This document shows positions 1,090 to 49,759 of a stretch of DNA of 64,000 nucleotides, piece by piece (the stretch's first letter is position 1; each line of letters begins with the position of its first letter). Source of the stretch: a virus; IMG/VR virus record IMGVR_UViG_3300035698_029931, positions 1 through 64,000 of that record; one strand, 5' to 3'. Below the pieces are notes generated by a model, which ran no database searches, was not told where the DNA came from, and saw only the letters and a program-made list of their open reading frames with translations. The translations under genes were made by a program, and so were the position numbers.

Positions 1090-2202
1090 ATGCGTATAGG
1101 AATAGTGAGTACATTTAATGTAGAATGTGGAATAAGTACTTACACTGAGCATTTAGTTGAACATTATCCGGAAGGTCAAGTCCAAATTTTTGGTAATAAA
1201 CTAGGTGTTTTAACTGACACTGAAAACTGCCTTAAACACCCTATTTGCAGATGCTGGAGTCGAAAGGATGATTTAATAGAGCTTACCCACGCTCTTATAG
1301 AATCTGATGTGGATATTGTTCATATTCAGCATGAGTTTGGGTTGTTTCAGAATCAATCAGCATTTGTAGAAATGTTGAAAAAGTTAAGAGAAAAGAAGAT
1401 TCCCGTTGTAGTCACATTCCATACGATTTTCTCTGAAGACCATCTTAACAGTGCTATCCAACAAATTTCCACGTATGTTAACATAATCATTTGTCATGGG
1501 CAAGGAGGTAAGGATGCTCTTCGAAATGTTGGAGTTAACAACACCTCATTGCTTCCTCATGGTTCTGTAAAAGTACAGGCGCGTGGGCATGATGAAAGTC
1601 GTAAATATCTTAACATTCCTGATGATAAAACTGTTATCTTATCTTTAGGGTTCATCACCCCTAATAAGGGGGCAATGGATTCTGTTTCTGCAATTTATCG
1701 ATTAAAGTATGAATTTGAAAATCTCTATTTCTTGATAGTGGGGATGCCCGTGGTTCATGACAATAACTTTGCCAACATGGAGTATTGTTTAAAACTTTTT
1801 AAACGAGTGAAAATGCTCAGTTTATTCGACACTGTTCATATATATCCTAAGTATGTCAGTGAAAAAGAAATAGATTATTATGCGGGTGCATCAGATATAG
1901 CAATAGAGAACTATTATCCAACTCATCATTCTACTTCAGGGATGAGTCATTTGGTTATGAGTTATGGCTTACCTTCTATTTCTTCAAAAGCCAATATTCT
2001 TGCTGATTTAGATTCAACAAGAAGTTTAAAATATAAAATTGGCAACATTGAAGAGATGTCGCAAAAGTTGCGTATTTTAATTCGTAACGATGATATTAAG
2101 AAAAAATTGAAAGAAAACTGTTTAAGTTATGCTGAGGAAACTTCTTGGGATAAAACAGCAAACATACACATCGGTTTGTACAGCTCGTTGGTTGCTGAAT
2201 GA
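1090..2202 (+). CDS. Glycosyltransferase, GT-B fold (family 4-like)
   Basis: This 370-residue protein has the two-domain layout of GT-B enzymes, which move a sugar from a nucleotide donor to an acceptor. The N-terminal domain starts with RIGIVSTFN and has the HIQHEFG motif (residues 78-84) and an FHTIFS strand near 111, both common in GT4 proteins of the mannosyl/glucosyl type. The C-terminal domain has LSLGFITPNKG, a donor-binding region near 265-285 (IENYYPTHHSTSG), and a PSISS segment. The usual E-x7-E is not clean, so the donor cannot be predicted. It opens the glycan island, and its end lies 7 bases before the next gene. Confidence 0.8.
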   Translation: MRIGIVSTFNVECGISTYTEHLVEHYPEGQVQIFGNKLGVLTDTENCLKHPICRCWSRKDDLIELTHALIESDVDIVHIQHEFGLFQNQSAFVEMLKKLREKKIPVVVTFHTIFSEDHLNSAIQQISTYVNIIICHGQGGKDALRNVGVNNTSLLPHGSVKVQARGHDESRKYLNIPDDKTVILSLGFITPNKGAMDSVSAIYRLKYEFENLYFLIVGMPVVHDNNFANMEYCLKLFKRVKMLSLFDTVHIYPKYVSEKEIDYYAGASDIAIENYYPTHHSTSGMSHLVMSYGLPSISSKANILADLDSTRSLKYKIGNIEEMSQKLRILIRNDDIKKKLKENCLSYAEETSWDKTANIHIGLYSSLVAE

Positions 2203-2209
2203 GAGGGTT

Positions 2210-3268
2210 ATGGTAGAAAAAGGTTTAAGGGTGATGATTAACGGGTTTTACGGTGCTCACAATAGTGGTGATGAGGCGATGTTGCGCAATTTTGTTTATA
2301 ACATGCAAGCTCACGACCCTGAGTGCATCACATTGGTAGCCACTGATAAGGCTCAGTCATTCAACTATAAGAATGTTTATTTTGTTTCTTCAGAAGATCG
2401 TGCTCAGCTAACAGAAACGGATGCTTTTATCTTGGGTGGAGGGGATCTCACTCCAGCATTTGGGAATCAGCTTTTATTGCATGCGAAGAAAGTTGGTAAT
2501 AAATGTATTATGTTGGGAGCCAGTATCAATGATGATTGGTTGTATGAAAAGATGAGGGACATTTATGTAAAGTCTTTAGAATTATTTGATCTTATTTTTG
2601 TAAGGGATCTTCAATCTAAAGAAAATCTTGATAAGTTGGGAATAAAATGTTCAGTGAAAACTGATATATCAGTAGGTTTACCTTCTGTACCAATAGAGTT
2701 TAAAAAAAGTGATAAGCATGTTACTTTATGCATAAGGGAAGTTCATCCTGAGTATGAAGTGCGCATGGTTGCTTTGGCAAATAAGGTTGTAAGGTTTTTG
2801 TTAAAAGAAGGGTTTACAATCACTCTACTGCCTCTTTGTTATGAAGATAAAAGGTCTTATGAGTATTTTACGAAAATTGATCCTAAGATAGAGATGATTT
2901 ACACTCTCAGCCCTCAACAGCATAAATATGTTATTGGTAATTCTGATTATGTTATTTCATTGGGTCGCCTGCATCCTTTGATATATGCTATTGATACGGT
3001 TACACCTATGTTGGGAGTGGTTTATCCTATTCTTGAAACTCCCCGCTATCATAAGATGCCCGCGTGGTTTGAGTATATCAATAATGATTATTTGCTTAAT
3101 TTTAATTTGAAGATGAAGGATTTTGAGAAAAAGTTTAGGGAGTTGAATGATCATAAAGATGAAGTTAAAAAACAGTTAGTTATTCAAAAAAAATCTCATG
3201 ATAAGTGCAATAAAGAACAGTTTAACGAATTGATCAATTTTATAAAGGGAAAAAATGATAACACCTAA
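2210..3268 (+). CDS. Polysaccharide pyruvyl transferase family protein (CsaB/WcaK-like)
   Basis: Proteins of this family transfer pyruvate (from phosphoenolpyruvate) as a ketal onto sugars of surface polymers. The family's N-terminal loop GAHNSGDEAML is at residues 15-25, followed by GGGDL near 80 and SLGRLHPLIYA near 250, which corresponds to the conserved R-LH-LI-A motif. The start at 2210 (352 residues) is chosen because GAGAGGG lies just upstream; longer forms would run deep into the preceding glycosyltransferase. It sits between a glycosyltransferase and a methyltransferase, so it probably acts on the same glycan. Confidence 0.75.
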   Translation: MVEKGLRVMINGFYGAHNSGDEAMLRNFVYNMQAHDPECITLVATDKAQSFNYKNVYFVSSEDRAQLTETDAFILGGGDLTPAFGNQLLLHAKKVGNKCIMLGASINDDWLYEKMRDIYVKSLELFDLIFVRDLQSKENLDKLGIKCSVKTDISVGLPSVPIEFKKSDKHVTLCIREVHPEYEVRMVALANKVVRFLLKEGFTITLLPLCYEDKRSYEYFTKIDPKIEMIYTLSPQQHKYVIGNSDYVISLGRLHPLIYAIDTVTPMLGVVYPILETPRYHKMPAWFEYINNDYLLNFNLKMKDFEKKFRELNDHKDEVKKQLVIQKKSHDKCNKEQFNELINFIKGKNDNT

Positions 3269-3863
3269 TTCGATTAAAGAAGGGCCGCCAGAATATTATG
3301 ATAACGCCTTTTCTCGTGGAACTTACCCTAATTTTTTTCAGATAGCAGGGTATGTCATGGATTCTTTGGATCGGTTTAAAAGTGGTAAATTATGTGTAGC
3401 GGAAGCTGGCGTGAGACTTCCCGCATTTAAGCAGCCCTTTTTGGATATTGGATGCGGAATGGGTCGTGTTAGTCTGGTCGGTTATTATGGACATGGATTA
3501 CGGATAGATGGTGTGGATTTTTCTTCTTATGGTATCAATCTTGCAACATGTTACCAATTGAAGAATGTTACTTTTTATCAAAAAGACGTATGGAATTTTA
3601 CTGATTATGATAAATATTCAGTTTTTATTATGACTGAATTTTTAGAACACATTAAGGACGATGTTAGGTTTATCCGAGAAAAGATTCCGTCAGGGTCGTT
3701 GGTGATAATATCGTTACCCAGTCCATTGTTTGGGGATACGTATCATTTACGTTATGCTGAATCAGTTTCTGATATTGTTAATGCATATGAAAGTGAACTT
3801 AATTTCATCGAAGCCAAAGTCATTGGTACAGGGACTTATGGTGCAATAGCTTTGAAAAAATAA
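3255..3863 (+). CDS. Class I SAM-dependent methyltransferase
   Basis: A 202-residue Rossmann methyltransferase. Motif I is LDIGCGMG (63-70), motif II ends in the acidic VDFS (87-90), and the TEFLEHI segment near 130 is the motif IV equivalent seen in sugar and small-molecule methylases (Methyltransf_11/23 type). The gene overlaps the pyruvyl transferase by 14 bases with AAAGGG before its ATG. It probably O- or N-methylates a sugar of the glycan. The acceptor is not readable from sequence. Confidence 0.8.
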   Translation: MITPNSIKEGPPEYYDNAFSRGTYPNFFQIAGYVMDSLDRFKSGKLCVAEAGVRLPAFKQPFLDIGCGMGRVSLVGYYGHGLRIDGVDFSSYGINLATCYQLKNVTFYQKDVWNFTDYDKYSVFIMTEFLEHIKDDVRFIREKIPSGSLVIISLPSPLFGDTYHLRYAESVSDIVNAYESELNFIEAKVIGTGTYGAIALKK

Positions 3864-3864
3864 A

Positions 3865-4854
3865 ATGAAAATAACAATTGCAATAAATACAGCTCAGGTG
3901 GATTATCCTTATACGGCTTTTCCAAACACTCATTTATTCGAATTAACAATGAGAAGTTTGAGAGAACAAACTTTCAGGGATTTTGAGGTAGTCGTAGCGG
4001 ATGTAAATTATGATGAGCGAAAAGACTATTTCAAAGAAAATCCTGAAGATTTCCCAATTAACCATGTTAAAATTAAACCTAATGTGTGGATTCCGTTCAA
4101 TCATTTCGCTATTTCAACGACAAAAAACACTTGTCTATTACACGCTAAAGGCGGTATTGTTGCTTCTATTGGTAGTTGTGTTAGGTTTGATAAGCACTTT
4201 GTAGAAAAGGTTGTTGAGGGGGTTGAAGATGGAAATTGTATTATAAGTAGATTTTCGATTGAACGAGGCGATGAAATTGTTTTTAAAGATTTGCGACCTG
4301 ATGATGCTGTATCTGTTCACGGCAATGTGGCAGCTTCAATGGAAGATTGGTTACTCATTAACGGGTACGATGAAATGTATGACGGTTCCAAAGGGATAGA
4401 AGATTGTGATGTTGGAGAAAGACTTTTAAGAGCTGAGAAGGAAATTAAAATGATTGATGGGGGAGTGGTATACGAAGATCATATCACTTGTTATCCGTTG
4501 TTGACAAAATCTCCAAGATTTCAAAAGTGTCAATTTTTATGGTGGACAATTTCTGCTGATAGAAAACAGATTGCTGCGAATAAGAATTCCTTAACGGATC
4601 TTGAATATGATTATTTACAGTCTTGTAAGTATGGAGATACAAGAAGATTTTGTTTGAGAAATTTAAGGTGTATGTATTGTTCCGAAGATTTTGAATGTTT
4701 TTTTGGAAAGTCGGCTCATTTAACAAAACTCTATATGCATCCTTCATTGATATTTGATTTAAAAGAACAGCAAAAGAATCCAAGGTTAGCAGTTAAAAGG
4801 TTAGCGAAACTTTGTGAAATTGATAATCTTAAAAAATTTGTCGGAGAAGTGTGA
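3865..4854 (+). CDS. Family 2 (GT-A) glycosyltransferase with a degenerate DxD site
   Basis: This 329-residue protein aligns over its full length with the protein at 9334-10329: both share REQTFKDFEVV-type strands, the AISTTKNTCLL segment (82-92) and an ED pair in GIEDCDVG near 180 that would be the catalytic base. Where the paralogue has TDD at 102-104, this one has IGS, so the metal/donor-binding DxD is missing. It may be a pseudoenzyme, use a metal-free mechanism, or serve as a partner subunit. The start directly follows the upstream stop without a clear ribosome site, suggesting translational coupling. It shares a C-terminal HPSLIFDLKE motif with its paralogues. Confidence 0.75.
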   Translation: MKITIAINTAQVDYPYTAFPNTHLFELTMRSLREQTFRDFEVVVADVNYDERKDYFKENPEDFPINHVKIKPNVWIPFNHFAISTTKNTCLLHAKGGIVASIGSCVRFDKHFVEKVVEGVEDGNCIISRFSIERGDEIVFKDLRPDDAVSVHGNVAASMEDWLLINGYDEMYDGSKGIEDCDVGERLLRAEKEIKMIDGGVVYEDHITCYPLLTKSPRFQKCQFLWWTISADRKQIAANKNSLTDLEYDYLQSCKYGDTRRFCLRNLRCMYCSEDFECFFGKSAHLTKLYMHPSLIFDLKEQQKNPRLAVKRLAKLCEIDNLKKFVGEV

Positions 4855-4865
4855 GGGGTAAGGTC

Positions 4866-5384
4866 ATGGAAGATCATTTTCAAGAAAGATATGTCAAGCA
4901 TCAACAGCAAAAAGGGGAAGTCTTGCAGCAAATTGTGGAGGAAAGACATTCTAGTAGGATCTTTTCTGATAAAACAGTGAGTGGGGAGGATATTGACACG
5001 TTACTCGCCCACTCACTATATTGCCCTTCTTCTTGTAATAGGCATGCGATTGAATTATCTATTATTAGTGATAAGGATCTTAAGAATTTATTAGGCGGAA
5101 TATTGGTGGGTGGGGTTGGTTGGATAAATAGAGCAAGCCATATCATCCTTATTTTTGCTGATTCTGTTGCTTATAAAGCTGGAGATGAAGTTAAGTTTAT
5201 GCCATATTTGGATGCTGGAATCATTATTCATCAATTGTATTTAACTTCTGCTGCATTAAGGTTGAAGTGTTGTTATGTGAATCCCAACATTAGAGAAATG
5301 AATTATGATCATTTCAAGAAGGTTTTTAGTGATAAAATATTTTGTGGGGCATTCGCAATAGGGAAAGAGGTGAGTGTTGCCTAA
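4866..5384 (+). CDS. Nitroreductase-like flavoprotein
   Basis: The first 45 residues fit the FMN-binding nitroreductase pattern: ERHSSRIFSDKTVSGEDI followed by CPSSCNRHAIEL, corresponding to the R-S-R-F and A-P-S-x-x-N-xQ motifs. The later DAGIIIHQLYLTSAALRLKCCYVN matches the second conserved helix and strand. At 172 residues it is near the small end of the family. GGGGTAAGG precedes the ATG at 4866. Family members reduce nitro groups, quinones or dehalogenate; several sit in polysaccharide clusters without a known substrate. A redox step in glycan or cofactor chemistry is an inference. Confidence 0.65.
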   Translation: MEDHFQERYVKHQQQKGEVLQQIVEERHSSRIFSDKTVSGEDIDTLLAHSLYCPSSCNRHAIELSIISDKDLKNLLGGILVGGVGWINRASHIILIFADSVAYKAGDEVKFMPYLDAGIIIHQLYLTSAALRLKCCYVNPNIREMNYDHFKKVFSDKIFCGAFAIGKEVSVA

Positions 5385-6435
5385 AATCAGTGTGATATAC
5401 ACGACCGCAAGAGGTGATTGTCCAATGAGGGAGAGGCCTGGGGTGAATCAATTTTCTGTATTTTTGGATTCTCTTGAAGAACAGGTGTTTAAAGAAGAAA
5501 TTGAAGTGATCATTGTTGATGCATTGAAAGATGTGAAAATAGAAAATTCAAAATTGCCTGCGTATTTAACTGAACGTAAAGAATATAATTTTTCTAAGTA
5601 TTCTTTTCCTGTAAAGCACATCAAACCTCTTCCAAGTTGGTGGTTGGAACATGGGTTCAGTTCTTATTGTCATTGTGTTAATAGCGGTATTATTGCAGCA
5701 GATGGAGAATTGATTATTTTATTTGATGATTGTTCAAAGATAATGGGAAGAGAAAATATAAAATTGCAATGGGAATGGTATAAAAAAGGTGATGGTAAGC
5801 AGTTTGCAAGATCTATTTATGAATATTGGATTGGGGATAAACCAAGATTGAATTCTGTTGAAGGAAAGCCGTCGTTTGGGAAAATTGTAAGGCATATGAG
5901 TTATGACCGTTTAGAAGAAAAAAATAAATTGTATATAGAAGAGGAATCATTTGGTTCTTATGGGTATTATTCCTTTAGTTTGGATGTAATTTTAGCACTC
6001 AATGGATACAATGAATTGTTTGATGGAGCTAAAGGTGCAGAAGATTTTGATATTGGCAATCGTTTAATGGCTTATGGTTGTAGGTCTATCGTAGATATGA
6101 GATTGAGGGTAGTAGAGTTTTCTCATTATTCCACTGCGTTTCATGGTTTGAATGTTGGGGTGGGAAGAAAAAACAATGTTTCCACTCACGAAGCACTTTT
6201 GCATCTTTGGGAGCCTGATTGGAAGGATCGTGTTCGGGAGAAAAAAACTTTTATAAAAGCGAATGATAGACCTATGACCGAACAAGAATACAATTATATG
6301 TTAGAAAGGAACAAGGTTTATGTTCCTAATTTTGTAGAAGATGAAGTCATTAAAAGAATGAAAACTCATCCACCAATTTTTGATTTAAAAGATTTGAGGA
6401 AAAAATATCGTGAAGGGTTCTATAACGAGAAATAA
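5374..6435 (+). CDS. Family 2 (GT-A) glycosyltransferase
   Basis: A 353-residue GT-A protein starting PKISVIYTTARGD, with the donor/metal site LFDDCSK (DD at 118-119) and the acceptor-side GAEDFDIGNRL near 215. It ends with THPPIFDLKDLRKK, the same C-terminal signature as the proteins at 3865 and 9334, so the three are paralogues. The start is non-ATG: GTG at 5374 or TTG at 5377 follow GAGGTG, and the TTG has the better spacing. It overlaps the nitroreductase gene by about 11 bases. The DxD here is intact. Confidence 0.8.
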   Translation: MLPKISVIYTTARGDCPMRERPGVNQFSVFLDSLEEQVFKEEIEVIIVDALKDVKIENSKLPAYLTERKEYNFSKYSFPVKHIKPLPSWWLEHGFSSYCHCVNSGIIAADGELIILFDDCSKIMGRENIKLQWEWYKKGDGKQFARSIYEYWIGDKPRLNSVEGKPSFGKIVRHMSYDRLEEKNKLYIEEESFGSYGYYSFSLDVILALNGYNELFDGAKGAEDFDIGNRLMAYGCRSIVDMRLRVVEFSHYSTAFHGLNVGVGRKNNVSTHEALLHLWEPDWKDRVREKKTFIKANDRPMTEQEYNYMLERNKVYVPNFVEDEVIKRMKTHPPIFDLKDLRKKYREGFYNEK

Positions 6436-7015
6436 AAAGATTAAAGAACGTATTTACATTACTAAAGACGAGCTAGAATCTATTGAAAGTGGGCTGTCTT
6501 TAGATGCTCATATTCAACGATACGGATTTGTTCGTCAATATGCTCATGGGAATGTTTTGGATTGTGCGTGTGGATGCGGTTATGGAACTTATATGTTATC
6601 AAAGAACCCTGATGTTGAATCAATTGTTGGGGTGGATGTTTTAAAGGGAGCGATTGAGTATGCGAACCTTCATTTTACTAATGATAAAGTTTCTTTTAGG
6701 TGTGGCGATATCGGGAAGATGGTATTGTTGAAACAGGTTGATCAGTTGATTTCTATTGAAACAATTGAGCATCTTCAGTATCCCTTGGATTTAATAAATA
6801 TGGTTGTAAAGAATAATATAAACGAGTTGATCATTTCGTTCCCAACCAAAAAATCAACTCATTACAATAAATACCATTACCATGATTTTACCTTTAATGA
6901 CATTAAAATGTTATTAAGTGATCAATACAGAATAAGAGATTCGTTTGAATACAAAAGAGAAGTTGGGTTTGTTTTTTGTGTTCGATCAAAACTACAAGAA
7001 AGGAATAAGAAATGA
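6410..7015 (+). CDS. Class I SAM-dependent methyltransferase
   Basis: A 201-residue protein with motif I LDCACGCGYG (50-59), motif II VGVDVLKGAIEYA, and SIETIEHLQYP as the motif IV region, which places it with the UbiE/Methyltransf_23-like small-molecule methylases. The second half is short and carries THYNKYHYHDF, a segment often seen in capsule-locus methylases. It uses a GTG start with TTGAGGA upstream and overlaps the preceding glycosyltransferase by 26 bases. The target is probably a sugar hydroxyl, carboxyl or amine in the island's glycan. Confidence 0.78.
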   Translation: MKGSITRNKKIKERIYITKDELESIESGLSLDAHIQRYGFVRQYAHGNVLDCACGCGYGTYMLSKNPDVESIVGVDVLKGAIEYANLHFTNDKVSFRCGDIGKMVLLKQVDQLISIETIEHLQYPLDLINMVVKNNINELIISFPTKKSTHYNKYHYHDFTFNDIKMLLSDQYRIRDSFEYKREVGFVFCVRSKLQERNKK

Positions 7016-7779
7016 CAAAAGAAAAGTACAGTCAAATAGCGGAGATCACCACACCACCTCCACAAACTCCTTGGAATAAAGATACTAATAATCTTAGTTA
7101 CGTTTATTTTCCAAACTTAAAAACAGTTTATTGTATCACTTATCGAACAGCATCTACGTTCATTAAGAGATGGCTTTATAAGTGTGAGAATAACCTTGAA
7201 GAAACGGATGTCACTACAGCTACAGTTCCAATTCATCAATTAAAATGGAATCGTTTGACACCATTGCAAGTTTTGGATAAAAAAGATTGTTTAAGGTTCG
7301 CAGTCATTAGGCATCCAATAGACAAAATGTTGTCAATGTTCTATTGTTCTGTTTATAATAGGCCATATGATTTTAGATGGTGGAAAAGGTATTTGCCAAA
7401 CCGTAAAAATAATCACGTTTCTTTTGATGAATTTATGGAAGTGATTGCAGAAAGAACTGTTGATTGGGAAAATGCTGATATACATTGTTTTAATCAAAGC
7501 AGTTTACTAACTCATGATGACAAATATTTACCTACTCACATAGGTCTTTACAGTGACATTGAAAAGTTTTTGGCAAACATAGCAAAAATTAAGAATATTC
7601 TTCCTCCAGATTTTAATAAAAAGATTAACACTTCAGCGTATTGTTTGTACACTAAAGAAAAACGATCTGAGGTTTCTAAATATGCGAAAAAAATGATTGA
7701 AAAAAGATACGAGAAAGATTATGAATTGTATGATAAAGTTAAAAAATCGGGAGGGATGTTATTATGTCAAAAGACATGA
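7012..7779 (+). CDS. Sulfotransferase family 2-like protein
   Basis: This 255-residue protein has the two PAPS-binding motifs of carbohydrate sulfotransferases. The 5'-phosphosulfate loop equivalent is YRTASTFIKRWL (44-55) after a strand ending in VYCIT, and the 3'-phosphate motif is VIRHPIDKMLSMF (98-110), where Arg100 and Ser108 are the expected contacts. The Lys of the classical loop is replaced by Arg45. The gene directly below it (start 7764, 16-base overlap) is an APS kinase that would supply PAPS. Together they suggest that the phage sulfates a sugar of its own glycan or of a cell surface. Confidence 0.75.
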   Translation: MTKEKYSQIAEITTPPPQTPWNKDTNNLSYVYFPNLKTVYCITYRTASTFIKRWLYKCENNLEETDVTTATVPIHQLKWNRLTPLQVLDKKDCLRFAVIRHPIDKMLSMFYCSVYNRPYDFRWWKRYLPNRKNNHVSFDEFMEVIAERTVDWENADIHCFNQSSLLTHDDKYLPTHIGLYSDIEKFLANIAKIKNILPPDFNKKINTSAYCLYTKEKRSEVSKYAKKMIEKRYEKDYELYDKVKKSGGMLLCQKT

Positions 7780-8315
7780 CTTGGTTTACCATTATGTCAC
7801 AAAAAGTAATTTGGTTCACTGGACTCCCTTGTAGTGGGAAAACAACCGTGGCTGATTTGGTGGCAGAAGAATTGCATCGTTTTAATGTATACCCTGTTCG
7901 ATTAGATGGTGATGTTGTTAGAAAAGGGCTTTGTAAGGAGTTGGGGTTTTCTAAAGAAGATAGGCGTAAAAATTTAGAACGGATTGGTTATGTTTGTGAA
8001 ATTTTGAGTAACAGTAATGTTTTAACATTAGCCACTTTCGTTTCTCCTTACAGAGAAACAAGGGATTGGTTGAGGGAAAAAGTTGGTGAAGAAAATTTTG
8101 TTGAAGTTTATTGTAAATGTTCTGTTGAAGAATGTATCCGACGAGATGTGAAAGGAATGTATGCAAAAGCACTTAAAGGGGAGATTAAGGGTTTCACGGG
8201 CGTGGATGATCCTTATGAAGTGCCTCAAGAAGCTGAAATTGTTTTGGATACAGAGCGGGAAGAACCAAATGATAGCGGAAGAAGAGTTCTGGAAAGGATT
8301 CTTTTTAAACGATGA
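7764..8315 (+). CDS. cysC: Adenylylsulfate (APS) kinase
   Basis: The enzyme phosphorylates adenosine 5'-phosphosulfate to PAPS, the universal sulfate donor. All family hallmarks are present in 183 residues: Walker A GLPCSGKTT (20-28), RLDGDVVRKGL (46-56), the GFSKEDRRKN segment (61-70), the FVSPYRETR loop (92-100), KGMYAKALKGEIKGFTG and VDDPYE (147-152). GGGAGGG lies 8 bases before the ATG at 7764. A later ATG at 7794 would also leave the domain whole; the first ten residues look like a near repeat of the next ten. It overlaps the sulfotransferase gene and the next gene (ATGA). Confidence 0.92.
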   Translation: MSKDMTWFTIMSQKVIWFTGLPCSGKTTVADLVAEELHRFNVYPVRLDGDVVRKGLCKELGFSKEDRRKNLERIGYVCEILSNSNVLTLATFVSPYRETRDWLREKVGEENFVEVYCKCSVEECIRRDVKGMYAKALKGEIKGFTGVDDPYEVPQEAEIVLDTEREEPNDSGRRVLERILFKR

Positions 8316-8536
8316 AGAAGTTAAGAAAAATTAAACTTGGTACATTAGGGGTATCGGGTATTTTTTACCGTATTCATATTATCATTCTTCAATCGATTTT
8401 TTTCTACATTCTCACAGGGGAGTGGAAATGGGCGATAGGAACTTCGATATTATGGAATGCCATTTGCACATTGTTATATTATAATTACCATTATTGGTTT
8501 GCTAGGTTATTCAAAATAGGGAGGAATAATGAGTGA
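8312..8536 (+). CDS. Small membrane protein, DUF2061-like
   Basis: A 74-residue basic protein with two hydrophobic stretches (about 20-35 and 42-58) around LTGEWKWAIGTS, ending in YYNYHYWFARLF. The order helix, TGxW, helix, Y-Y-x-HYW is the DUF2061 pattern. Family members are small membrane proteins of unknown function and are often found beside APS kinase or sulfation genes. The gene overlaps the APS kinase stop by ATGA, so the two are translationally coupled. A role in sulfate or PAPS handling is conceivable but not shown. Confidence 0.6.
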   Translation: MKKLRKIKLGTLGVSGIFYRIHIIILQSIFFYILTGEWKWAIGTSILWNAICTLLYYNYHYWFARLFKIGRNNE

Positions 8537-8972
8537 AGAAATAAAAACAATAAAACACATCATGGACGTCCAGGGGTTCATTTCAATTATAGTGGGTGAA
8601 TTGGAAACGAGAGCAAGATTTCATGATAGGTCGAAGCTATATTCTCCTGAAGTAGAAACATTTGATGTTTATTCTAAGAAGCTCAAGGGGTGTACTTATA
8701 ATAGCGAGGAGTATAAGCAGTTTTTAAAAGGGATGAAGCCAGCTTTAGATCATCATTATGCTGAAAATAATCATCATCCAGAACATTGGGAAAATGGCAT
8801 TGCCGATATGGATTTGGTTGATTTAACAGAGATGCTTTGCGATTGGAAGGCTGCTACACTTAGGCATGATGATGGGGATTTAATAAAAAGTATAGAGCAA
8901 AATCAAAAGAGATTTGGATACTCTAACGATATAAAAAAGCTGTTATTAAAAACGGCAAGGAGATTAAAATGA
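8529..8972 (+). CDS. DUF5662-like phage protein
   Basis: A 147-residue protein with conserved histidines arranged as in DUF5662: RARFHDRSKL near 28-37, then HHYAENNHHPEHW near 76-88 and CDWKAATLRHDDGD near 107-120. The His/Asp pattern resembles an HD-like metal site, but the catalytic activity of the family is unknown. A strong AGGGAGGA precedes the ATG. It overlaps its upstream neighbour by 8 bases and its downstream neighbour by ATGA. Such genes are frequent in large phages. Confidence 0.6.
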   Translation: MSEEIKTIKHIMDVQGFISIIVGELETRARFHDRSKLYSPEVETFDVYSKKLKGCTYNSEEYKQFLKGMKPALDHHYAENNHHPEHWENGIADMDLVDLTEMLCDWKAATLRHDDGDLIKSIEQNQKRFGYSNDIKKLLLKTARRLK

Positions 8973-9337
8973 GGAGCATGTTTATTGGTCGATATCAACC
9001 GTTTCATGAGGGTCATTTTACGCTCATTAATGAGGTGTTGAAGGAAGAAGGTGGCAAGGTGTTAATTGCTTTGCGTGATACACCTATCCGGAATACAGAT
9101 CCTTATTCCATTGAAGAGCGTATTGAAGTGATTAAGGTTTATTTTCCTGATGCAGTTTTTTATCCTTACGAAAACGGTTGGAAAAGTGCTGACGTGGTTA
9201 TTGTAGGCATTCCCGACATAGGTGAAGTTTGTTATGGACGAAAGGTTGGATGGGGTATGAGGGAAATCAAGTTGGATGAAAAAACAGAAGCAATTTCAGC
9301 AACGAAGATTAGAGCAAATATGAAAGAAGAGAAATGA
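8969..9337 (+). CDS. Cytidylyltransferase/NMN adenylyltransferase-like nucleotidyltransferase
   Basis: The protein has the nucleotidyltransferase HxGH signature in GRYQPFHEGH (7-16) and the C-terminal ISATKIR motif that closes the active site in NMN adenylyltransferase-type enzymes. At 122 residues it is a minimal domain, shorter than most NadM proteins. It may activate a sugar or polyol phosphate with CTP or ATP for the glycan island, or it may take part in NAD salvage. The location between a DUF5662 gene and a glycosyltransferase favours the former only weakly. Confidence 0.7.
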   Translation: MRSMFIGRYQPFHEGHFTLINEVLKEEGGKVLIALRDTPIRNTDPYSIEERIEVIKVYFPDAVFYPYENGWKSADVVIVGIPDIGEVCYGRKVGWGMREIKLDEKTEAISATKIRANMKEEK

Positions 9338-10329
9338 AAATTTCGGTTTGCATGAATACAGCACGTGCCGATAGATGTACGGGAAGGGAAACAAATTTCC
9401 ATATTTTTGAATATCTCATGGAGGGGTTGAGGGAACAAACTTTTAAGGATTTTGAAGTTGTTATTTGTGATGTTTTGTGGGAACAAAGAAAAACATATTT
9501 CATAGATCATCCAGAAAAATTCCCAATAAAACATATTCCACCAAAACCAAACATATGGGTTCCTAACGGTTACTGTGCTATTTCTACAACTAAGAATACT
9601 TGTTTACTTTATGCGCAAGGTGAAGTTGTAGTTTTTACAGATGATTATTCGACTTTTTCTCCAAAACATTTGGAACTTATTGTTGATAAAGTCACTGAAA
9701 CACACTGTGTTGCCAACACTTATAATATTTATGCAGATGACGAGTTGGTGCATAGGGACAGGAGGAGGTCTGCACGCAATTTAGTTACTTACGGGAATAT
9801 AGCATTGTACCTTGAAAGATTTTTAGATCTCAATGGTTATTGTGAAATGTATGATGGTTCAAGGGGGTTAGAAGATTGTGATATGGGGGTTAGGATGCTT
9901 AGGAGTGGAATGACCACTGAATTGATACAATATCCTGTAAAGTATCAGCGTCACATTGAAAATTATCCATTACAAAAGAAAAGCAATATAAAATGTCCGA
10001 GATTAGCCGAAACTTTATCCAACAATGATTATAGAAAAGGCATTCATCGAGCGAATGAGATTCCCTACACTGATGAAGAAATGAAGATACTTTTTGAATG
10101 TTCTAATATTGTTCAAGGTCATAGATGTAAATATGTTGATAAGCATGGAAAACCTGTAGTATGTACTAGCGGTTTTATTGAAGGTGGTAATCCTAGATAC
10201 AGTGATACACATTTAATTGATAAGTTCACCAGACATCCATCATTACTTTTTAGCCTTAAAGAAATGAGAAAAGACGTCCCAATGGCTTTAGAGAAGCTAA
10301 AGGATGTTTGTAAAGACATGTTGCCTTAA
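9334..10329 (+). CDS. Family 2 (GT-A) glycosyltransferase
   Basis: A 331-residue GT-A enzyme starting MKISVCMNTARAD, with an intact FTDDYSTF donor site (TDD at 102-104) and the acid/base segment RGLEDCDMGVRML near 177-190. It is a close paralogue of the protein at 3865-4854, and the alignment needs no gaps through the first 110 residues. The C-terminus has HPSLLFSLKEMRKD, shared by all three island GT-A proteins. It overlaps the previous gene by ATGA. The intact DxD suggests that this is the active copy. Confidence 0.82.
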   Translation: MKISVCMNTARADRCTGRETNFHIFEYLMEGLREQTFKDFEVVICDVLWEQRKTYFIDHPEKFPIKHIPPKPNIWVPNGYCAISTTKNTCLLYAQGEVVVFTDDYSTFSPKHLELIVDKVTETHCVANTYNIYADDELVHRDRRRSARNLVTYGNIALYLERFLDLNGYCEMYDGSRGLEDCDMGVRMLRSGMTTELIQYPVKYQRHIENYPLQKKSNIKCPRLAETLSNNDYRKGIHRANEIPYTDEEMKILFECSNIVQGHRCKYVDKHGKPVVCTSGFIEGGNPRYSDTHLIDKFTRHPSLLFSLKEMRKDVPMALEKLKDVCKDMLP

Positions 10330-10341
10330 AGGAGGTTGATT

Positions 10342-10890
10342 ATGCCAGTTTCGTATCATGAAGGTTATGATTGTTTTAAAAAACTTATTGAAATGTATCA
10401 ACCAGAAGATTTGTTGGATGTTGGAATGGGTTATGGTAATATAGGAAGTATGGCTCAAATTATTATGCCAAGACTTGAACTTAATGGTATTGAAATTTGG
10501 TTGCCGTACCTTAGTCATGAAAATTCTCAGGCAAAAAGATATAAAAGAATATTCTTGGCAGATATCAAAGATATGATTGGTAAACTTTGGCCTGTTGATA
10601 TTGTAGTTGCGTGGGATGTGATAGAACACCTCGAAAGGGAAGAGGGGATTAATGTTATATATTATTTAAAATCAATCGCAGAAAAAAGTTTGTTAATAAG
10701 TCTTCCAATTATCGATTATCCACAAGGCGCAGTTTATGGAAATAATGCTGAGATTCATAAGACTCAATGGAAAGTTGAAGAGATGGAAGAATTAGGTGCG
10801 GAAACAGTGTTTAAGGGTAAAGTGATTGGGGTTTTTGAATTTAAAAGAAGTACAACAGAAAGAGAGGGTAACGATCATGATAGAAGATAA
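10342..10890 (+). CDS. Class I SAM-dependent methyltransferase
   Basis: A 182-residue protein with LLDVGMGYGN (24-33) as motif I, IEIWLPYL as the acidic motif II strand and VAWDVIEHLE near 85-94 as motif IV. The ATG at 10342 lies 6 bases after a perfect GGAGG, which excludes the in-frame TTG at 10336. The C-terminal part has SLPIIDYPQGAVYGNN and HKTQW, similar to small sugar or lipid methylases. It belongs to the methyltransferase set of the glycan island. Confidence 0.75.
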   Translation: MPVSYHEGYDCFKKLIEMYQPEDLLDVGMGYGNIGSMAQIIMPRLELNGIEIWLPYLSHENSQAKRYKRIFLADIKDMIGKLWPVDIVVAWDVIEHLEREEGINVIYYLKSIAEKSLLISLPIIDYPQGAVYGNNAEIHKTQWKVEEMEELGAETVFKGKVIGVFEFKRSTTEREGNDHDRR

Positions 10891-11674
10891 GAAAATGAAA
10901 AAGAAAGCAAACAATAAGAAGGTGAAAGATACGAATGATAAGGCGGAAGTCGTAAGTCAATTTGGACCGGATTATTATAATGAAGATTATTACGTAACTC
11001 CGGATGGTAAAAAGTTTGAAACTCCTGATGGTGAAACTTTAGGATGGAGTTATCAGAATCCTGATGGTGAGTTTTTGGGTGCTGATGATATTGTAAAGGC
11101 GTGGAAATTGGTGTTTGATCCAAAGAAAATGTTGGACGTAGGGGCTGGGCGGGGAACATTTGTGGCATACGCTCATAATTATGACATAGAAGCGGTGGGT
11201 TTTGATTTTTCATCGTGGGCTGTAGGCGACAAGGGAAGGTACCCGAACTGTAAGGCTGACTGGTTGGAACAACACGATGCCACGAAACCTTGGCCATATA
11301 AAGACAATCAATTTGATATGGTAACATGCTTGGATTTGTTGGAACATATTTATGAAGAAGATATTCAATTTGTTATTGATGAAATGTGTCGAGTTTCCAA
11401 GAAGTATATTTTCTTGCAGATTGCCAGTTTGCCCCATGATGAAGGTGTTTGTTTTAAGAAGGGTCAGAAGATCCCTGTTCAGTGGCAAGGTTGTGCTGTT
11501 GCTGGTCATGTGATTATTCAGCCTAAGAAATGGTGGATTAAAAAAATGTATCGGAATGGTTGGAAAATGAATAAAAATATATTGGATTGGTTTTTGAGTG
11601 TAATGGATAGTGATGTCATTTCTAATTGGTTACAAAACACTATTGTAGTTATGGAGAAAGAAAATGACAAATAA
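10877..11674 (+). CDS. SAM-dependent methyltransferase with Lys-rich and PDG-repeat N-terminus
   Basis: The ATG at 10877 follows AGAGAGGG and gives 265 residues. The first 25 residues are mostly Lys/Asn. Residues 38-70 carry three PDG turns (TPDGKKFE, TPDGETLG, NPDGEFLG), an unusual short repeat that might bind another protein or metal. The methylase domain follows, with LDVGAGRGTF (86-95), VGFDFSSWA, and CLDLLEHIYEED as motif IV. It overlaps the preceding methylase gene by 14 bases. The acceptor is unknown. Confidence 0.75.
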   Translation: MIEDKKMKKKANNKKVKDTNDKAEVVSQFGPDYYNEDYYVTPDGKKFETPDGETLGWSYQNPDGEFLGADDIVKAWKLVFDPKKMLDVGAGRGTFVAYAHNYDIEAVGFDFSSWAVGDKGRYPNCKADWLEQHDATKPWPYKDNQFDMVTCLDLLEHIYEEDIQFVIDEMCRVSKKYIFLQIASLPHDEGVCFKKGQKIPVQWQGCAVAGHVIIQPKKWWIKKMYRNGWKMNKNILDWFLSVMDSDVISNWLQNTIVVMEKENDK

Positions 11675-12653
11675 TTTATTGCCCTATAAGAGTTCCACAC
11701 CAATTCATTTTTATAAAAGGGAAGATCATTCTTCAATTGATATTGTTGGCGGTAAGATTTTTGAACAAATGAAAGAACATGGCTATAGTGTAGAATTGAG
11801 ATCGGCTAACAATGTTAATAAGCCAGAAATAAATCCAGTGGATGTTGGGATTGTTTATGGGCTCGTTCGAGATTTAAAGAAGTTGTCTCGATATAAAATA
11901 AAAGTGGCGGGGTTAGTTTGTGAAGAAGAATTGACTCCTCATAATATTGAGTTAATTGAAGAAGCTGATTTAGATCAAATATGGGTGCCGAGTGAGTTTG
12001 TGGCGAACTTTTTTGTTCAAGCTGGATTTACAGAAAAGGTTACTGTTGTACCGCATGGAATAGACGATTCCCCTATTATTGAATGTAAAAATAATGGGGA
12101 AAGATTCGTAGGTTTAATGATATACAATTCATACAATAGATTGAATGATCACGTAAAGAGAAAGAATCCGTTTAAGGCGGTCGAAGCTGTTAACTCTTTA
12201 AATGGATCGTTAGACCTTTTGTTGAGATTAAAAACAAAGCATCAAGGGTATTACAATAAATATGATTTAAAAAGGGTCGAATTTATTGATCAATATTTTG
12301 AAAATGTGGATGAATTATATAGAGAGTGCAATTTTGTACTTTATCCGTCAGATTCGGAAGGTTTTGGGCTAATTGGCTTGGAGTGTTTGATGAGAGGAAT
12401 TCCATTGATTTCCACTAAAACTGGTAACGATTATCTGGATAAAGATATCGAGTATGTCCACATTGAATTACCAGTGACCGTAGAAAAGATTAAAGCAGCT
12501 ATTTTGAAAATGGTGAGTAATTATCAATACTATAGAAAGCAATCCATTCAACAAAGGGATTTACTTTATTCTAGGTTTTCTTGGCCTGAGATTGGTAAAA
12601 AAGTTGATATCACTATGAGTAAAATTATACGTAAAATTTATGGGGTAAAGTAA
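11664..12653 (+). CDS. Glycosyltransferase, GT-B fold (family 4/1)
   Basis: This 329-residue protein has the GT4 hallmarks: DQIWVPSEFV near 107-116, TVVPHGIDDS near 128-137, and the donor-binding SDSEGFGLIGLE near 230-241, which contains the E-x7-E motif. It ends with a typical RFSWPEIGKKV helix. It is the last gene of the glycan island; after it come about 36 bases and then the holin-like gene. An 11-base overlap joins it to the methylase upstream. The sugar donor is not predictable. Confidence 0.83.
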   Translation: MTNNLLPYKSSTPIHFYKREDHSSIDIVGGKIFEQMKEHGYSVELRSANNVNKPEINPVDVGIVYGLVRDLKKLSRYKIKVAGLVCEEELTPHNIELIEEADLDQIWVPSEFVANFFVQAGFTEKVTVVPHGIDDSPIIECKNNGERFVGLMIYNSYNRLNDHVKRKNPFKAVEAVNSLNGSLDLLLRLKTKHQGYYNKYDLKRVEFIDQYFENVDELYRECNFVLYPSDSEGFGLIGLECLMRGIPLISTKTGNDYLDKDIEYVHIELPVTVEKIKAAILKMVSNYQYYRKQSIQQRDLLYSRFSWPEIGKKVDITMSKIIRKIYGVK

Positions 12654-42634: not shown

Positions 42635-42847
42635 TTAACAGCGTAGAGCATGGCAAGATTCGAACTTGCTTGTCAATACGGGTGGCAACCAACTGTAGGA
42701 CTTTTCAGTCCACCCACACGGGGAGCTTTCTTCGCACAGTGCCACAGAGTGCTTGTTACTCCGTAGGCGTCCCGTATCAACACTCTAGCTTCTTACCGAC
42801 ACTATTAGCATAGGTGTTCCCACCACGCCGCACGCCCTAGCTGTTAA
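42635..42847 (-). ncRNA. tRNA-like structured RNA A, downstream of rtcB
   Basis: On the minus strand this about 213-nt region has a 7-bp acceptor-like stem (GGGCGTG with CATGCTC) next to a perfect T arm (GCAAG, loop TTCGAAT, CTTGC). It also has a GCG...CGC D-stem equivalent split by a long insertion, and a hairpin with 7-base loop AACAAGC, which would hold a CAA (Leu) anticodon but lacks U33. Its flanks TTAACAGC and GCTGTTAA pair to extend the acceptor stem, leaving one bulged C (42643). The remaining insert has a GGACT-GAAA-AGTCC hairpin. It fills the gap between rtcB and the next gene. Its class is not settled: interrupted tRNA-Leu or Y-RNA-like tRNA mimic. Confidence 0.6.
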
Positions 42848-42850
42848 AGA

Positions 42851-44044
42851 TCAACCTTTAATAACTGCCAATGGTTGTAATTTAGTTACAATCTCAACTA
42901 AGTCTCGTTGATTTTCCATGACTTCATCGATATTTTTATAAGCTCCAGCTGCTTCATCAAGATCAGAAACATTTCTAATGGAATGAATAATTCCCTGATC
43001 ATTTAATATTTTCATTTCATGTTCTAGGTTCAATTCTCTCTGCGCTTGTTTGCGGCCCATTGTTCTACCGGCACCGTGACTGCACGACTTGAAGGAATCT
43101 TTATTTCCTAATCCCCTAACGATATATGAAGACGTTCCTTGAGAGCCCGGAATAATACCCAATTCACCTTCATAAGCCCTTGTTGCTCCTTTCCTATGCA
43201 CCATTACATTGCTTCCGAAATGATTTTCCATAGCCGCATAATTATGAGCGATGTTTATCATTGGACACGTATCCATGATTGTAACCATTCCATTTTTTAC
43301 AAGCCCGACTCTAAATTCCTCAACAATTCTATCCATCATTAATCTGCGATTTGCCTTTGCAAACTCAACGCAATACTCCATTTCTTTTCTATATAGATTT
43401 GCTTCGTCTGTATTTATCGGTAGAAAATTAAGTTCCCATGAGTCCGGAATAAAGCTGTGCCATTCGCTATTAAGTTCCATCGCTAACTTATTGTAATATT
43501 TCGCAACCTTGTAGCCTAAATTACGACTTCCGCTATGAATCATAACCCATATAAACCCATCTGATCCTTTTTGAATCTCTATGAAATGATTACCACCACC
43601 AAGAGTGCCTAATTGCTTACGAGCAGAATCGTAATTAGAATTTACGATCTTCATTTCCGTTACAATTGGAAGGTCCGGCATTAATCTATCGTCCTGCTGT
43701 TCTTTCTGATGCTCAAAGCCGACCGGAACAACCTCTCTTATACGGCCCAATATTCTTTTAATATCATCGACTTCTATATGTTTTAAAGATGTTCTAACAG
43801 CAGACATTCCGCACCCAATATCTACGCCTACAAAATTTGGGACTATTGCTCTTTGAGATGCCATTACGCCACCAATAGGTGCGCCATATCCCTGATGTCC
43901 GTCCGGCATTAACGCAACATGATGAAATGCGAACGGCAGAGAAGCTGCGTTCTCAATTTGACTTAACGCACCATCCTCCATTGATCCTTCTTTTGACCAT
44001 ATCTTTATTGGCAACACGCACTTACCTGGCTTATAAATATACAT
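42851..44044 (-). CDS. rtcB: RNA-splicing ligase RtcB
   Basis: RtcB joins RNA ends with 2',3'-cyclic phosphate or 3'-phosphate to 5'-OH using GTP and Mn2+; it seals spliced tRNAs and repairs cleaved RNAs. The 397-residue protein keeps all key sites: VDIGCGM with Asp75 and Cys78, the LGGGNHFIEIQ motif, HSGSRNLGY, HNYA, and SCSHGAGRTMGR with the guanylated His. AAAGGGG precedes the ATG. tRNA-like RNAs lie directly before (44060-44189) and after (42635-42847) the gene, with ribosome-site-bearing flanks that are themselves part of the RNA stems. A gene for tRNA-Glu lies 0.9 kb upstream. No archease or Rsr gene is seen in the window. Confidence 0.95.
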   Translation of the reverse strand: MYIYKPGKCVLPIKIWSKEGSMEDGALSQIENAASLPFAFHHVALMPDGHQGYGAPIGGVMASQRAIVPNFVGVDIGCGMSAVRTSLKHIEVDDIKRILGRIREVVPVGFEHQKEQQDDRLMPDLPIVTEMKIVNSNYDSARKQLGTLGGGNHFIEIQKGSDGFIWVMIHSGSRNLGYKVAKYYNKLAMELNSEWHSFIPDSWELNFLPINTDEANLYRKEMEYCVEFAKANRRLMMDRIVEEFRVGLVKNGMVTIMDTCPMINIAHNYAAMENHFGSNVMVHRKGATRAYEGELGIIPGSQGTSSYIVRGLGNKDSFKSCSHGAGRTMGRKQAQRELNLEHEMKILNDQGIIHSIRNVSDLDEAAGAYKNIDEVMENQRDLVEIVTKLQPLAVIKG

Positions 44045-44059
44045 TTTATCCCCTTTATA

Positions 44060-44189
44060 TTAACAGCGTAGAGCGTGGCTAGGATTTGCACCTAGCATGA
44101 TACCGCGCAGTACGTTCACTAGGAAAACTGGCTGCTTGGCTCTGCCTAGTATTGCGTCTACCTTTTCCGCCACACGCCCTAGCTGTCAA
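44060..44189 (-). ncRNA. tRNA-Leu-like structured RNA B, upstream of rtcB
   Basis: The core (44071-44179) has an acceptor-like stem GGGCGTG/CACGCTC and a D arm that is nearly the bacterial tRNA-Leu consensus (GGCGGAAAAGGTAGACGC). A long-variable-arm-like hairpin (GTACT-GCGC-GGTAT) and a 6-bp T stem GCTAGG/CCTAGC around TGCAAAT follow. The anticodon arm is abnormal: TACTAGG pairs with CCTAGTG and encloses about 21 bases, three times the usual loop. The ends TTGACAGC and GCTGTTAA pair to lengthen the acceptor stem with one bulged C at 44068. It lies 16 bases before the rtcB start. It is not a normal elongator tRNA; see RNA A. Confidence 0.6.
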
Positions 44190-44382: not shown

Positions 44383-44400
44383 CTAGCTGTTAAAGATCAA
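44383..44400 (-). repeat. 18-bp leader repeat, solo copy without an RNA
   Basis: TTGATCTTTAACAGCTAG on the minus strand, identical to the copy at RNA A, here followed at once by TGGGAGGG and the start of a small gene. It looks like the scar left by loss of a tRNA-like cassette, or a site where one could be gained. Confidence 0.75.
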
Positions 44401-44717
44401 ACCTCATGAATCCCTTCAACCCCTCTTACCTCTCTGTCTTGTGTTCTTTTATTGAGCCACATCAGAGCTTCTTCTAGTTTTATTATTGCCATAGCGTTTT
44501 CTTTACATACGAATTTGCTTGATTGATAGGCTTGAATTCTTTGCCTACAAGCATCCATTACAGTTTCAACAAATGCTCCATTAGGTTCTCGCCTATCTGT
44601 GCCTTTTCCTAATGGTCCATCTTGCCAACTGATTGAAATTCCCGTTCCTTCGACACTTCCTCCAGTTGGATTACCATTTTCGTCTTGTGTGTTAACTGCA
44701 TGATATTCTGCCAACAT
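44397..44717 (-). CDS. Acb2/Tad1-like candidate, small phage protein
   Basis: A 106-residue protein with the conserved-looking order ISWQDGPLG, PNGAFVETVMDACRQRI, FVCKENAMAIIKLEEALMWL and RTQDREVRGVEGIHEV. The last helical part (EN-A-AI-KLEEA--WL) resembles the hairpin domain shared by phage Acb2 and Tad1 proteins, which soak up cyclic nucleotide or cADPR signals made by CBASS or Thoeris defences. I judge this from memory of the family pattern, not from a search. AAAGGGAGG precedes the ATG. The setting, an accessory operon with rtcB and a tRNA, fits counter-defence. Confidence 0.5.
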   Translation of the reverse strand: MLAEYHAVNTQDENGNPTGGSVEGTGISISWQDGPLGKGTDRREPNGAFVETVMDACRQRIQAYQSSKFVCKENAMAIIKLEEALMWLNKRTQDREVRGVEGIHEV

Positions 44718-47917: not shown

Positions 47918-48037
47918 GCAGTTCTTTGAGAGAGCTGTTTGTGTGGCAGGTGGATTGGGGGTCGTTGATTTTCCATCCCCCAAGTGCGACCCTCATCCGC
48001 TTGTCATAAAATCGATAATAACATCATAGGAGGTCAA

Positions 48038-49759
48038 ATGGAGTCTGTAAAAGCAAAAAGGATAGTTTCTAAGCAGAGGTTTCGTGATTTGGTGATTCAA
48101 GGTGTGGGCATTTTATCAGAACCTGTAGTTGCCACATTAGGCCCAGAGGGTTTGCCAATCTTGATTCAAAGAGATGGAGCTCCGCCGTTTTTTACAAAAG
48201 ACGGTGTAACAGTGGCTCGTCATACAAAAGTCAAAAATCCGTTGCTTGATACGATAATCACTTCATTAAAAGAAAGTTCTGAAAAAACTAATGAAAAAGT
48301 TGGTGATGGAACAACAACCGCAGTGGCTTTGTCTGCCGCTATTATTCGTGAGGGGATGAAACAGATAAAATCTGGAATTGTCACTCCACAAGAATTGGTT
48401 AATGGTATTCGTAAATTAGGAGATCTGTTTCCAGCTGTTTTAGAAAAATGGGTAAGAAAGATAAAGACAAAAGAGGAGCAGCACAATGTTGCTTATATAT
48501 CAGCTAATAATGATAAAGTCATTGCAGATAAAGTTGTGGAAGCTGTTGAGATGGCAGGGGAAGACGGTTATGTTTCGCTTGAAGATGGTACTTCAAAAGA
48601 AATTAAGGTTCAGTTTGTTGAGGGATATACTTTATCGTCTGGGTGGTCTAATATCGGAGCTTATGGGACTACTTTTGTTAATAATTCTCAAAAAAATTCA
48701 GTGGACATATTGAAGCCAGCGATTCTTTTATATGATGGAGTTGTTTCTGATGTCAATGATTTGGCTAATTTCTACATTGCTTTAACAAACAACGGGACTA
48801 GACCGATTCCATTATTAATAATAGCTCATAATTTTGAGGGCGAAGCACTTAATATGCTTATTCTCAATAAGCGTGCTGGTCAAATTGTTGGGCTTGCAAA
48901 AGTTCCTTATTTGTCAACCATCAGTAGTCGTCGTTGGCTTTTAGATGATTTGGCAGCTTTGACGGGTGGTAAGGTTGTTGAGCATGATTCTAATGGTATT
49001 ATGAAGGGAGTTTTTAGTGGTGAAAAAGTTAAGACCCTTAATGAAGGGGTGTTGGGGTGTTGTGATAAAGTGGTTATTGGTAAAAAAGATACGATAATTT
49101 ATGGTGGTCATAGTGATGATGAAGAAAAGATCAAGTACAGTGACACTTTGAGAGGACAGTTGCCGGATGCTGAAAGTGAATCGGAGTTTGATGTTGATTT
49201 GATCAAAACTCGTTTATCTAAAATGTTTGGTGGTATAGTGGAAATTCAGGTGGGCGGTTCTACTGAATTGGAGGTTAGAGAGAAAAAGTACAGGGTTGAA
49301 GATGCACTCAATGCGACGCGTGCTGCAACTGAAATGGGTGTAGTTCCTGGTGGTGGGATTGTTTTTTTCAATCTAGCAGAAATTTTCTTAAAAGATTATT
49401 TAAGAGATAATGTTCATATGGCAATAGCTATTAAAGTCATGAAAGAAGCGTTAAAAGATCCCCTTAGAATTATATTGTCAAACGCTGATATTAAACCTGA
49501 TGAGATAATCGGTGATCTTTTAAAGACAGTGCGGTCGCACCCTCTCAGGGGTTATGATGCGAAAAAGAAGGTTTTAGTGGAGAATATGATGGATGCAGGG
49601 ATTATGGATCCTCTTAAGGTGTCAATTTTGGCTCTTAGAAGTGCGATTTCAATATCTTGTGAATTATTGTGTGGTGGTGGAATGTTGGCTTTTGATGAAG
49701 GCACTGACAATCCTTCACAATCTGACTTTTATGTTAATGAATCCAATCAGGAGGTGTAG
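48038..49759 (+). CDS. groEL: Phage chaperonin, GroEL family
   Basis: The ATG at 48038 follows AGGAGG and gives 573 residues. The equatorial ATP site is preserved (TKDGVTVA at 53-60, GDGTTT at 89-94, and ATRAATEMGVVPGGG in the C-terminal half), so it should hydrolyse ATP. The apical domain is diverged, with an insertion-like acidic stretch (LPDAESESEFDVD). The C-terminal Gly-Gly-Met tail of bacterial GroEL is absent. Chaperonins in jumbo phages such as EL and OBP fold phage proteins, in some cases without a co-chaperonin; no groES is seen here. Confidence 0.9.
   Translation: MESVKAKRIVSKQRFRDLVIQGVGILSEPVVATLGPEGLPILIQRDGAPPFFTKDGVTVARHTKVKNPLLDTIITSLKESSEKTNEKVGDGTTTAVALSAAIIREGMKQIKSGIVTPQELVNGIRKLGDLFPAVLEKWVRKIKTKEEQHNVAYISANNDKVIADKVVEAVEMAGEDGYVSLEDGTSKEIKVQFVEGYTLSSGWSNIGAYGTTFVNNSQKNSVDILKPAILLYDGVVSDVNDLANFYIALTNNGTRPIPLLIIAHNFEGEALNMLILNKRAGQIVGLAKVPYLSTISSRRWLLDDLAALTGGKVVEHDSNGIMKGVFSGEKVKTLNEGVLGCCDKVVIGKKDTIIYGGHSDDEEKIKYSDTLRGQLPDAESESEFDVDLIKTRLSKMFGGIVEIQVGGSTELEVREKKYRVEDALNATRAATEMGVVPGGGIVFFNLAEIFLKDYLRDNVHMAIAIKVMKEALKDPLRIILSNADIKPDEIIGDLLKTVRSHPLRGYDAKKKVLVENMMDAGIMDPLKVSILALRSAISISCELLCGGGMLAFDEGTDNPSQSDFYVNESNQEV

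Follow-up and report, generated by a model that had tools for sequence, protein, structure and literature searches.

RNA B, a minus-strand RNA that lies directly 5' of an RNA ligase gene (rtcB) in a phage genome, belongs, on sequence comparison, to a widespread family of RNAs from phages and prophages that seems not to have been described before. Aligned members show that the family keeps the acceptor stem, D arm and T arm of leucine tRNA and has lost the anticodon arm, and that the place of the anticodon arm is taken by a hypervariable and often pseudoknotted core, which is swapped between otherwise similar phages. The window, which is the whole stretch of DNA that was analysed, has a length of 64,000 nucleotides (positions 1 to 64,000 of IMG/VR virus record IMGVR_UViG_3300035698_029931). 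The features of the rtcB region are listed below by window position; R2 is a covariance model that is described further on.

42635..42847, minus strand: RNA A, 3' of rtcB (fold z -4.25)
42653..42669, minus strand: T arm of RNA A, GCAAG-UUCGAAU-CUUGC, with the canonical UUCGAAU loop (sequence and fold)
42851..44044, minus strand: rtcB, RNA ligase, 397 aa (Pfam RtcB, E 4.7e-111)
44060-44189, minus strand: RNA B with its outer stem (extended ends), 5' of rtcB
44060..44070, minus strand: 3' flank of RNA B, U-A-C(bulged)-GCUGUUAA (sequence and fold)
44071..44179, minus strand: RNA B from acceptor to acceptor (R2 match; D arm and T arm shared with Bacillus phage RNAs by blastn)
44078..44096, minus strand: T arm of RNA B, GCUAGG-UGCAAAU-CCUAGC, with a 6-bp stem that covaries in the family
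44097..44153, minus strand: variable core of RNA B, which replaces the anticodon and variable arms, with a CUAGG/CCUAG stem and 21-nt loop (sequence)
44154..44172, minus strand: U8 and leucine-tRNA-type D arm of RNA B, UGGCGGAAAAGGUAGACGC (sequence; almost unchanged across 96 members whose cores differ)
44180..44189, minus strand: 5' flank of RNA B, UUGACAGCUA, base-paired to the 3' flank outside the acceptor stem (fold; common to RNA A and L100)
44383..44399, minus strand: solo 5' repeat TGATCTTTAACAGCTAG with no RNA, directly before a 59-aa ORF (exact pattern match)

An initial annotation of this DNA had placed structured RNAs directly before and after rtcB, and both are present as placed; reading of the sequence assigns both to the minus strand, which that annotation had not given. 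The acceptor-like stem beginning GGGCGTG was correctly seen in both (GGGCGUG/CACGCUC in RNA B, with the same ends in RNA A), as was the pairing of the flanks, which in RNA B joins UUGACAGCUA to UA(C)GCUGUUAA and leaves a single C of the 3' strand bulged out. Nucleotide N73 of RNA B is a U, no CCA is encoded, and the ribosome-binding site of rtcB follows directly 3'. RNA A repeats the extended terminal stem, acceptor and bulged C around a large multi-branched core and carries the perfect T arm and the hairpin with an AACAAGC loop that had been reported for it. The ends of the two RNAs are near-copies (23-25 nt at about 91-92% identity), and their paired ends therefore represent one observation rather than two, because the ends were copied between them. 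A D arm of the form GGCG...GACGC had been claimed for both RNAs; it holds for RNA B, whose D arm is indeed near the tRNA-Leu consensus, but not for RNA A, which lacks a Leu-type D arm and has in that place a long hairpin with a GGAA loop, with GACGC deep in the insert. Relative to dinucleotide shuffles, the folding z-score was -4.25 for RNA A (0/200 shuffles as stable) and -2.52 for RNA B (2/200). ARAGORN and Rfam called neither RNA, the sole call being a nearby tRNA-Glu, and a relaxed Rfam scan (E<=5) gave chance matches only for either RNA. The earlier description of structured, leucine-type tRNA-like RNAs with abnormal anticodon regions is supported.

When RNA B was compared with annotated phages by blastn, two of its pieces matched an unannotated site in Grass, SPG24, BSP38 and SPP1, and the D-arm piece alone matched phi3T. 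Reading of the Bacillus phage loci gave a 7-bp acceptor, UGGCGGAAUAGGUAGACGC, a long variable core, GG-UGCAAAU-CC and the acceptor 3' strand, and the family plan consists of the 7-bp acceptor, the Leu D arm UGGCGGAAUAGGUAGACGC, a 6-bp T stem and the UGCAAAU loop, with the anticodon arm absent. A gapped pattern recovered at least 119 stretches from IMG/VR, not all of which are real because its 18 specified bases permit chance matches, and a stricter 30-base pattern recovered 62 exact matches from bacterial genomes, mostly Firmicutes, where ~1e-5 are expected by our own arithmetic under uniform base composition. At least 163 members were collected, which include the Bacillus phages SPP1, Grass and phi3T and prophages of many Firmicutes, and some phages carry several copies. 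Because UGCAAAU and part of the D arm served as the search pattern, the family-wide invariance of these elements is partly by construction, although RNA B itself has the UGCAAAU loop; for the same reason, the collection under-represents members whose D or T arm has diverged. The family is absent from Rfam 15, and no description of it was found in the open-access literature; a review of the SPP1 genome does not mention tRNA. That the family has apparently gone unannotated until now, even in classical laboratory phages such as SPP1 and phi3T and in many Firmicutes prophages, is explained by tRNA finders that reject its members and by the lack of an Rfam model.

The shared scaffold shows the marks of a selected RNA fold. 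Pairing was not required by the pattern, and 163 of 170 motif-bearing sequences pair at least 6 of the 7 acceptor positions. Among 96 members with distinct cores, 98.2% of cells in the scaffold helices were paired, compared with 34-45% in slid controls, and 11 of the 16 scaffold pairs had changes on both sides; this covariation was repeated on the 33 bacterial-genome members alone. The sequence of the acceptor stem varies freely among members while its pairing is kept, and the 6-bp T stem covaries and forms with the 7-bp acceptor a 13-bp stack. Model R2, which was built only from the 33 bacterial-genome members with RNA B left out, gives RNA B a score of 70.9 bits (E 2e-16). Typical members reach 45-86 bits with the family model, and no tRNA-Leu gene of host or phage exceeds about 32 bits.

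Homologues with a conserved, covarying fold, which the initial annotation had named as support, thus exist for RNA B through its acceptor and T stems, but RNA A matched neither of the covariance models R1 and R2 with filters on or off. A pattern for the D region of RNA A matched only L110 (L110/G001), the sibling virus, and blastn of RNA A against phages returned short tRNA-like matches and chance matches only. When IMG/VR was searched for exact copies of the RNA ends, real matches came only from L110 and L100, the others being chance matches in coding sequence. RNA A is real by its folding energy and its tRNA-like acceptor and T arm, with no relatives found beyond L110, and we treat it as a chimera in which the ends of RNA B surround a different tRNA-like body with a canonical T loop. 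The L100 RNA has ends that are 95-100% identical to those of RNA B and an insert in its T loop, and its score with R2 (33 bits) is level with that of the best genuine tRNA-Leu (about 32 bits).

Members depart from tRNA in ways that bear on the proposal of an interrupted tRNA-Leu. ARAGORN called 0 of 163 members and found the true tRNA-Leu that served as a positive control, and a canonical anticodon arm (5 bp, 7-nt loop) at the tRNA position occurred in 1-2 of 102 core types, which is the chance level. The family is also set apart by an altered T loop, UGCAAAU, and a T stem of 6 bp, and removal of the insert would not restore a standard tRNA; these results speak against an interrupted tRNA-Leu. 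No match to the Rfam group I or group II intron models was obtained. Like bacterial tRNA-Leu, the family has U8, a Leu-type D arm with G18G19, a 7-bp acceptor stem and a T arm, and like many phage tRNAs it lacks a 3' CCA, which is not among the common triplets 3' of N73 in the 163 members. In contrast to tRNA-Leu, it has a core of 40-90+ nt that is often pseudoknotted and no anticodon arm, a 6-bp T stem, UGCAAAU in place of the UUC T loop, and no fixed A73. A73 is a leucyl-tRNA synthetase determinant and is present in 87 of 163 members (53%). In 80 Bacillus-family genomes, a long-core variant with the canonical UUC loop was found in 0 and the UGC form in 1, counts that are very sparse.

Other known RNAs resemble the family in part. 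Transfer-messenger RNA shares the tRNA-like ends, large insert and pseudoknots, whereas the family keeps a Leu-type D arm and has no tag reading frame, and neither ARAGORN nor Rfam called a tmRNA. The idea of a tag peptide starting at an AUG before the T arm was rejected, as a stop follows directly after the AUG in many members. The Bacillus cereus pseudo-tRNA known as tRNA-Other is tRNA-like, is not used in decoding and is tied to mobile DNA; its likeness to the family is by description only, and it is not known to form a family with exchangeable cores. The GOLLD and ROOL RNAs are large structured RNAs of Firmicutes phages that sometimes lie near tRNAs, but they are much larger than the members collected here, which gave no Rfam match. 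To our knowledge, no other RNA family combines a fixed tRNA frame with cores that are swapped.

Some copies have an insert at another point of the frame, either in the D loop (L400 4652-4805) or in the T loop (L100). An apparent D-loop insert before GTAGACGC in L400 4652-4805 and in L216, L248, L253, L281, L289, L300 and L329 would mark a second insertion point for variable RNA. In L284, positions 11500-11800 hold several family RNAs in tandem within a phage tRNA array, and one of the cores has extra T-arm-like hairpins. A hairpin, GGGTTCGGGGNTAGCCCGGACGA, is conserved directly upstream of the RNA in SPP1 and Nitunavirus (L209, L210 and L211). In SPP1 (L210, X89721), the RNA copy occupies the gap between gene 9 and gene 11, where gp10 would be expected; gp10 was listed as 'unrelated to known proteins' in the 2018 re-annotation, and its ORF, for which the coordinates are by expectation, may be spurious.

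The cores vary far more than the frame. Clustering at 70% identity divided the 163 cores into 102 types, 78 of which are singletons, and the core of RNA B is common to no other collected member. In 11 pairs of loci, each of the two flanks contains a matching stretch of 100 bp or more, yet core identity was 0.40-0.58, compared with 0.54 for random pairs; 2 of the 11 pairs are tandem copies within one record, with trivially matching flanks, and identity is patchier over fixed 150-nt flanks. Conversely, one core type is common to SPP1 and unrelated large Herelleviridae, with acceptor stems that are different and compensated. The cores are also folded: in a pseudoknotted type with five members (L262/249/340/342/358), 13 of 34 pairs have changed on both sides, a number that 0 of 500 shuffles reached, and covarying crossing helices occur in the types L284/348/390 and L344/354/391. 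In most members the last core helix stops just before the AU that leads into the T stem, and its mean score is 8.74 compared with 5.55 (sd 0.13) in shuffles. The cores matched their own locus or neighbouring DNA in antisense no better than shuffled sequences did.

Together, a fixed frame and a swapped core suggest a common maturation and many partners, and point to a fast-evolving function based on RNA. Our preferred reading, to which we assign a probability of roughly 40%, is that these RNAs are non-decoding tRNA mimics that are processed like tRNA and show an exchangeable core in the arms race between phage and host. The tRNA frame would make the transcript a substrate of the host tRNA-maturation enzymes RNase P and RNase Z, which would release the RNA from long phage transcripts and protect it. 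A search for promoters and terminators around members gave no signal, which suggests that longer transcripts are probably processed to yield the RNA, a step that would suit a tRNA frame. Once freed, the RNA would act through its core as a decoy, mimic or aptamer for a partner that varies. The likeliest partners would be defence factors of the host whose targets are tRNA or the translation machinery, and such partners would explain the exchange of cores. The ligase gene would stand outside this mechanism, and in this phage the units RNA B-rtcB and RNA A-next gene would be joined by the repeated RNA ends, where recombination adds or removes units.

Two observations lead us to favour anti-defence: the pattern is that of an arms race, and RNA B shares its block with rtcB and with a gene for a Tad1-like protein. 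The Tad1-like protein (106 aa, window 44397-44717, minus strand) is encoded two genes upstream of RNA B and matches the solved Tad1 structure (8kbb) with E 4.9e-16, with the Pfam model Acb2_Tad1_hairpin just below the cut-off; Tad1 is an anti-Thoeris nucleotide sponge. Several results count against this reading. Acb2 or Tad1 was not enriched in 40 family records, the sibling being the sole match in a search whose second run had no positive control match, and the cores show no complementarity to neighbouring DNA. Binding by tRNA enzymes is not assured, because A73 is present in only 53% of members and RNA B has U. It is possible, if doubtful, that the family represents natural 'tRNA scaffolds' of Firmicutes (and other) phages, in which a Leu-like frame matured and protected by the host would present hundreds of exchangeable pseudoknotted domains as modular, fast-evolving RNA factors of anti-defence or competition between phages. 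If true, this would make the family an RNA counterpart of polymorphic protein effectors.

Many prophage copies sit between a late regulator or transcription activator and HNH or terminase genes, which fits a role in the late operon as well and keeps alive another, unlikely explanation, in which the RNA belongs to the 5' leader of the late operon or of the gene that follows and serves there as a regulator or as a processing site of tRNA-like form, with a core that senses or tunes expression. The RNAs of the window and L100 lie directly 5' of a ribosome-binding site, as such an element would. However, for 55 of 152 members simple ORF calling places the nearest downstream ORF of at least 40 aa on the other strand, the same HNH gene family is preceded by different cores, and hypervariable cores are ill-suited to one conserved ligand.

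Comparison with the sibling bears on the possibility that the elements are selfish or recombinational, with tRNA-like arms that serve mainly as homology for cassette exchange and a core without function in trans. By major capsid protein, the sibling is the only relative in IMG/VR, and identity to SPO1-like Bacillus phages is ~31%. The L110/G001 sequence is 99.98% identical to the window but is without rtcB and RNA B (window 42837-44189), a clean loss between the 5' repeats of the two RNAs that corresponds to one crossover in the shared ACAGCTAGGGCGTG and that left RNA A with the 5' flank of RNA B. An assembly artefact at this repeat of ~25 nt is a possible but unlikely source of the difference. 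Because of this crossover, an RNA and the gene that follows it behave in this lineage as exchangeable units, and the solo 5' repeat before the 59-aa ORF may be another remnant; TGATCTTTAACAGCTAG has 3 copies in the window, a number reached in 0 of 100 shuffles. Gain or loss of rtcB through the RNA ends, and the swapping of cores between D and T arms, are what a selfish element would produce. Yet the covarying core helices indicate selection on the RNA fold, and the acceptor stems, which vary freely in sequence, stay paired; this explanation is improbable.

The two RNAs that flank rtcB, together with the ability of RtcB to seal broken tRNA, had suggested substrates or partners of the ligase, which would be cleaved by a host anticodon nuclease or at introns and then resealed or circularised. 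RtcB was found in 0 of 160 family loci and in 0 of 40 whole family phage records (which are fragments), conversely a family RNA was found near 0 of 80 phage rtcB genes, and RNA A persists in the sibling, whose 109 kb contain no rtcB. These counts make a ligase substrate very improbable, and we conclude that the position of rtcB beside RNA B is a coincidence and that the RNAs are not part of an RNA-repair operon.

The hint of a Y-RNA operon in this neighbourhood is likewise accidental. Phage Y RNAs would be tRNA-like partners of Rsr/Ro60 in an rtcB operon, comparable to the bacterial rsr-yrlBA-rtcBA arrangement (PMC7790460), with the bulged terminal stem as the Ro-binding site. The family does share with bacterial Y RNA (YrlA, the partner of Rsr) a tRNA-like domain without decoding, and, in RNA B, the paired ends with a bulged C and the rtcB neighbour that occurs in some bacteria. 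It differs in lacking an Rfam Y RNA match at E<=5, a general link to rtcB and a family-wide Ro-type stem. The rsr search that had been proposed, extended from this virus to its sibling, L100's virus and a further 40 family records, found no TROVE/Rsr in these possibly incomplete records, and pairing beyond the acceptor stem is absent in 82 of 163 members, which makes the bulged outer stem a local feature. The Y RNA proposal is largely refuted. Decay of tRNA-Leu pseudogenes, or drift of spacers spread with phage tRNA arrays, accords with sparse, accessory copies in phages, some of them in tRNA arrays (33 of 163 members within 1 kb of a real tRNA, compared with 18 at random positions), but is contradicted by strong compensatory change in the acceptor and T stems and inside cores, pseudoknots included, by the non-canonical UGCAAAU loop and by cores that are swapped rather than drifting, and is hardly credible.

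Two further regions of the window were noted. A phage chaperonin of the Cpn60/TCP-1 family (591 aa) is encoded at window 47984-49759 on the plus strand, and a long run of plus-strand ORFs at window 1090-12653, before the structural genes, resembles by eye glycosyltransferases and methyltransferases.
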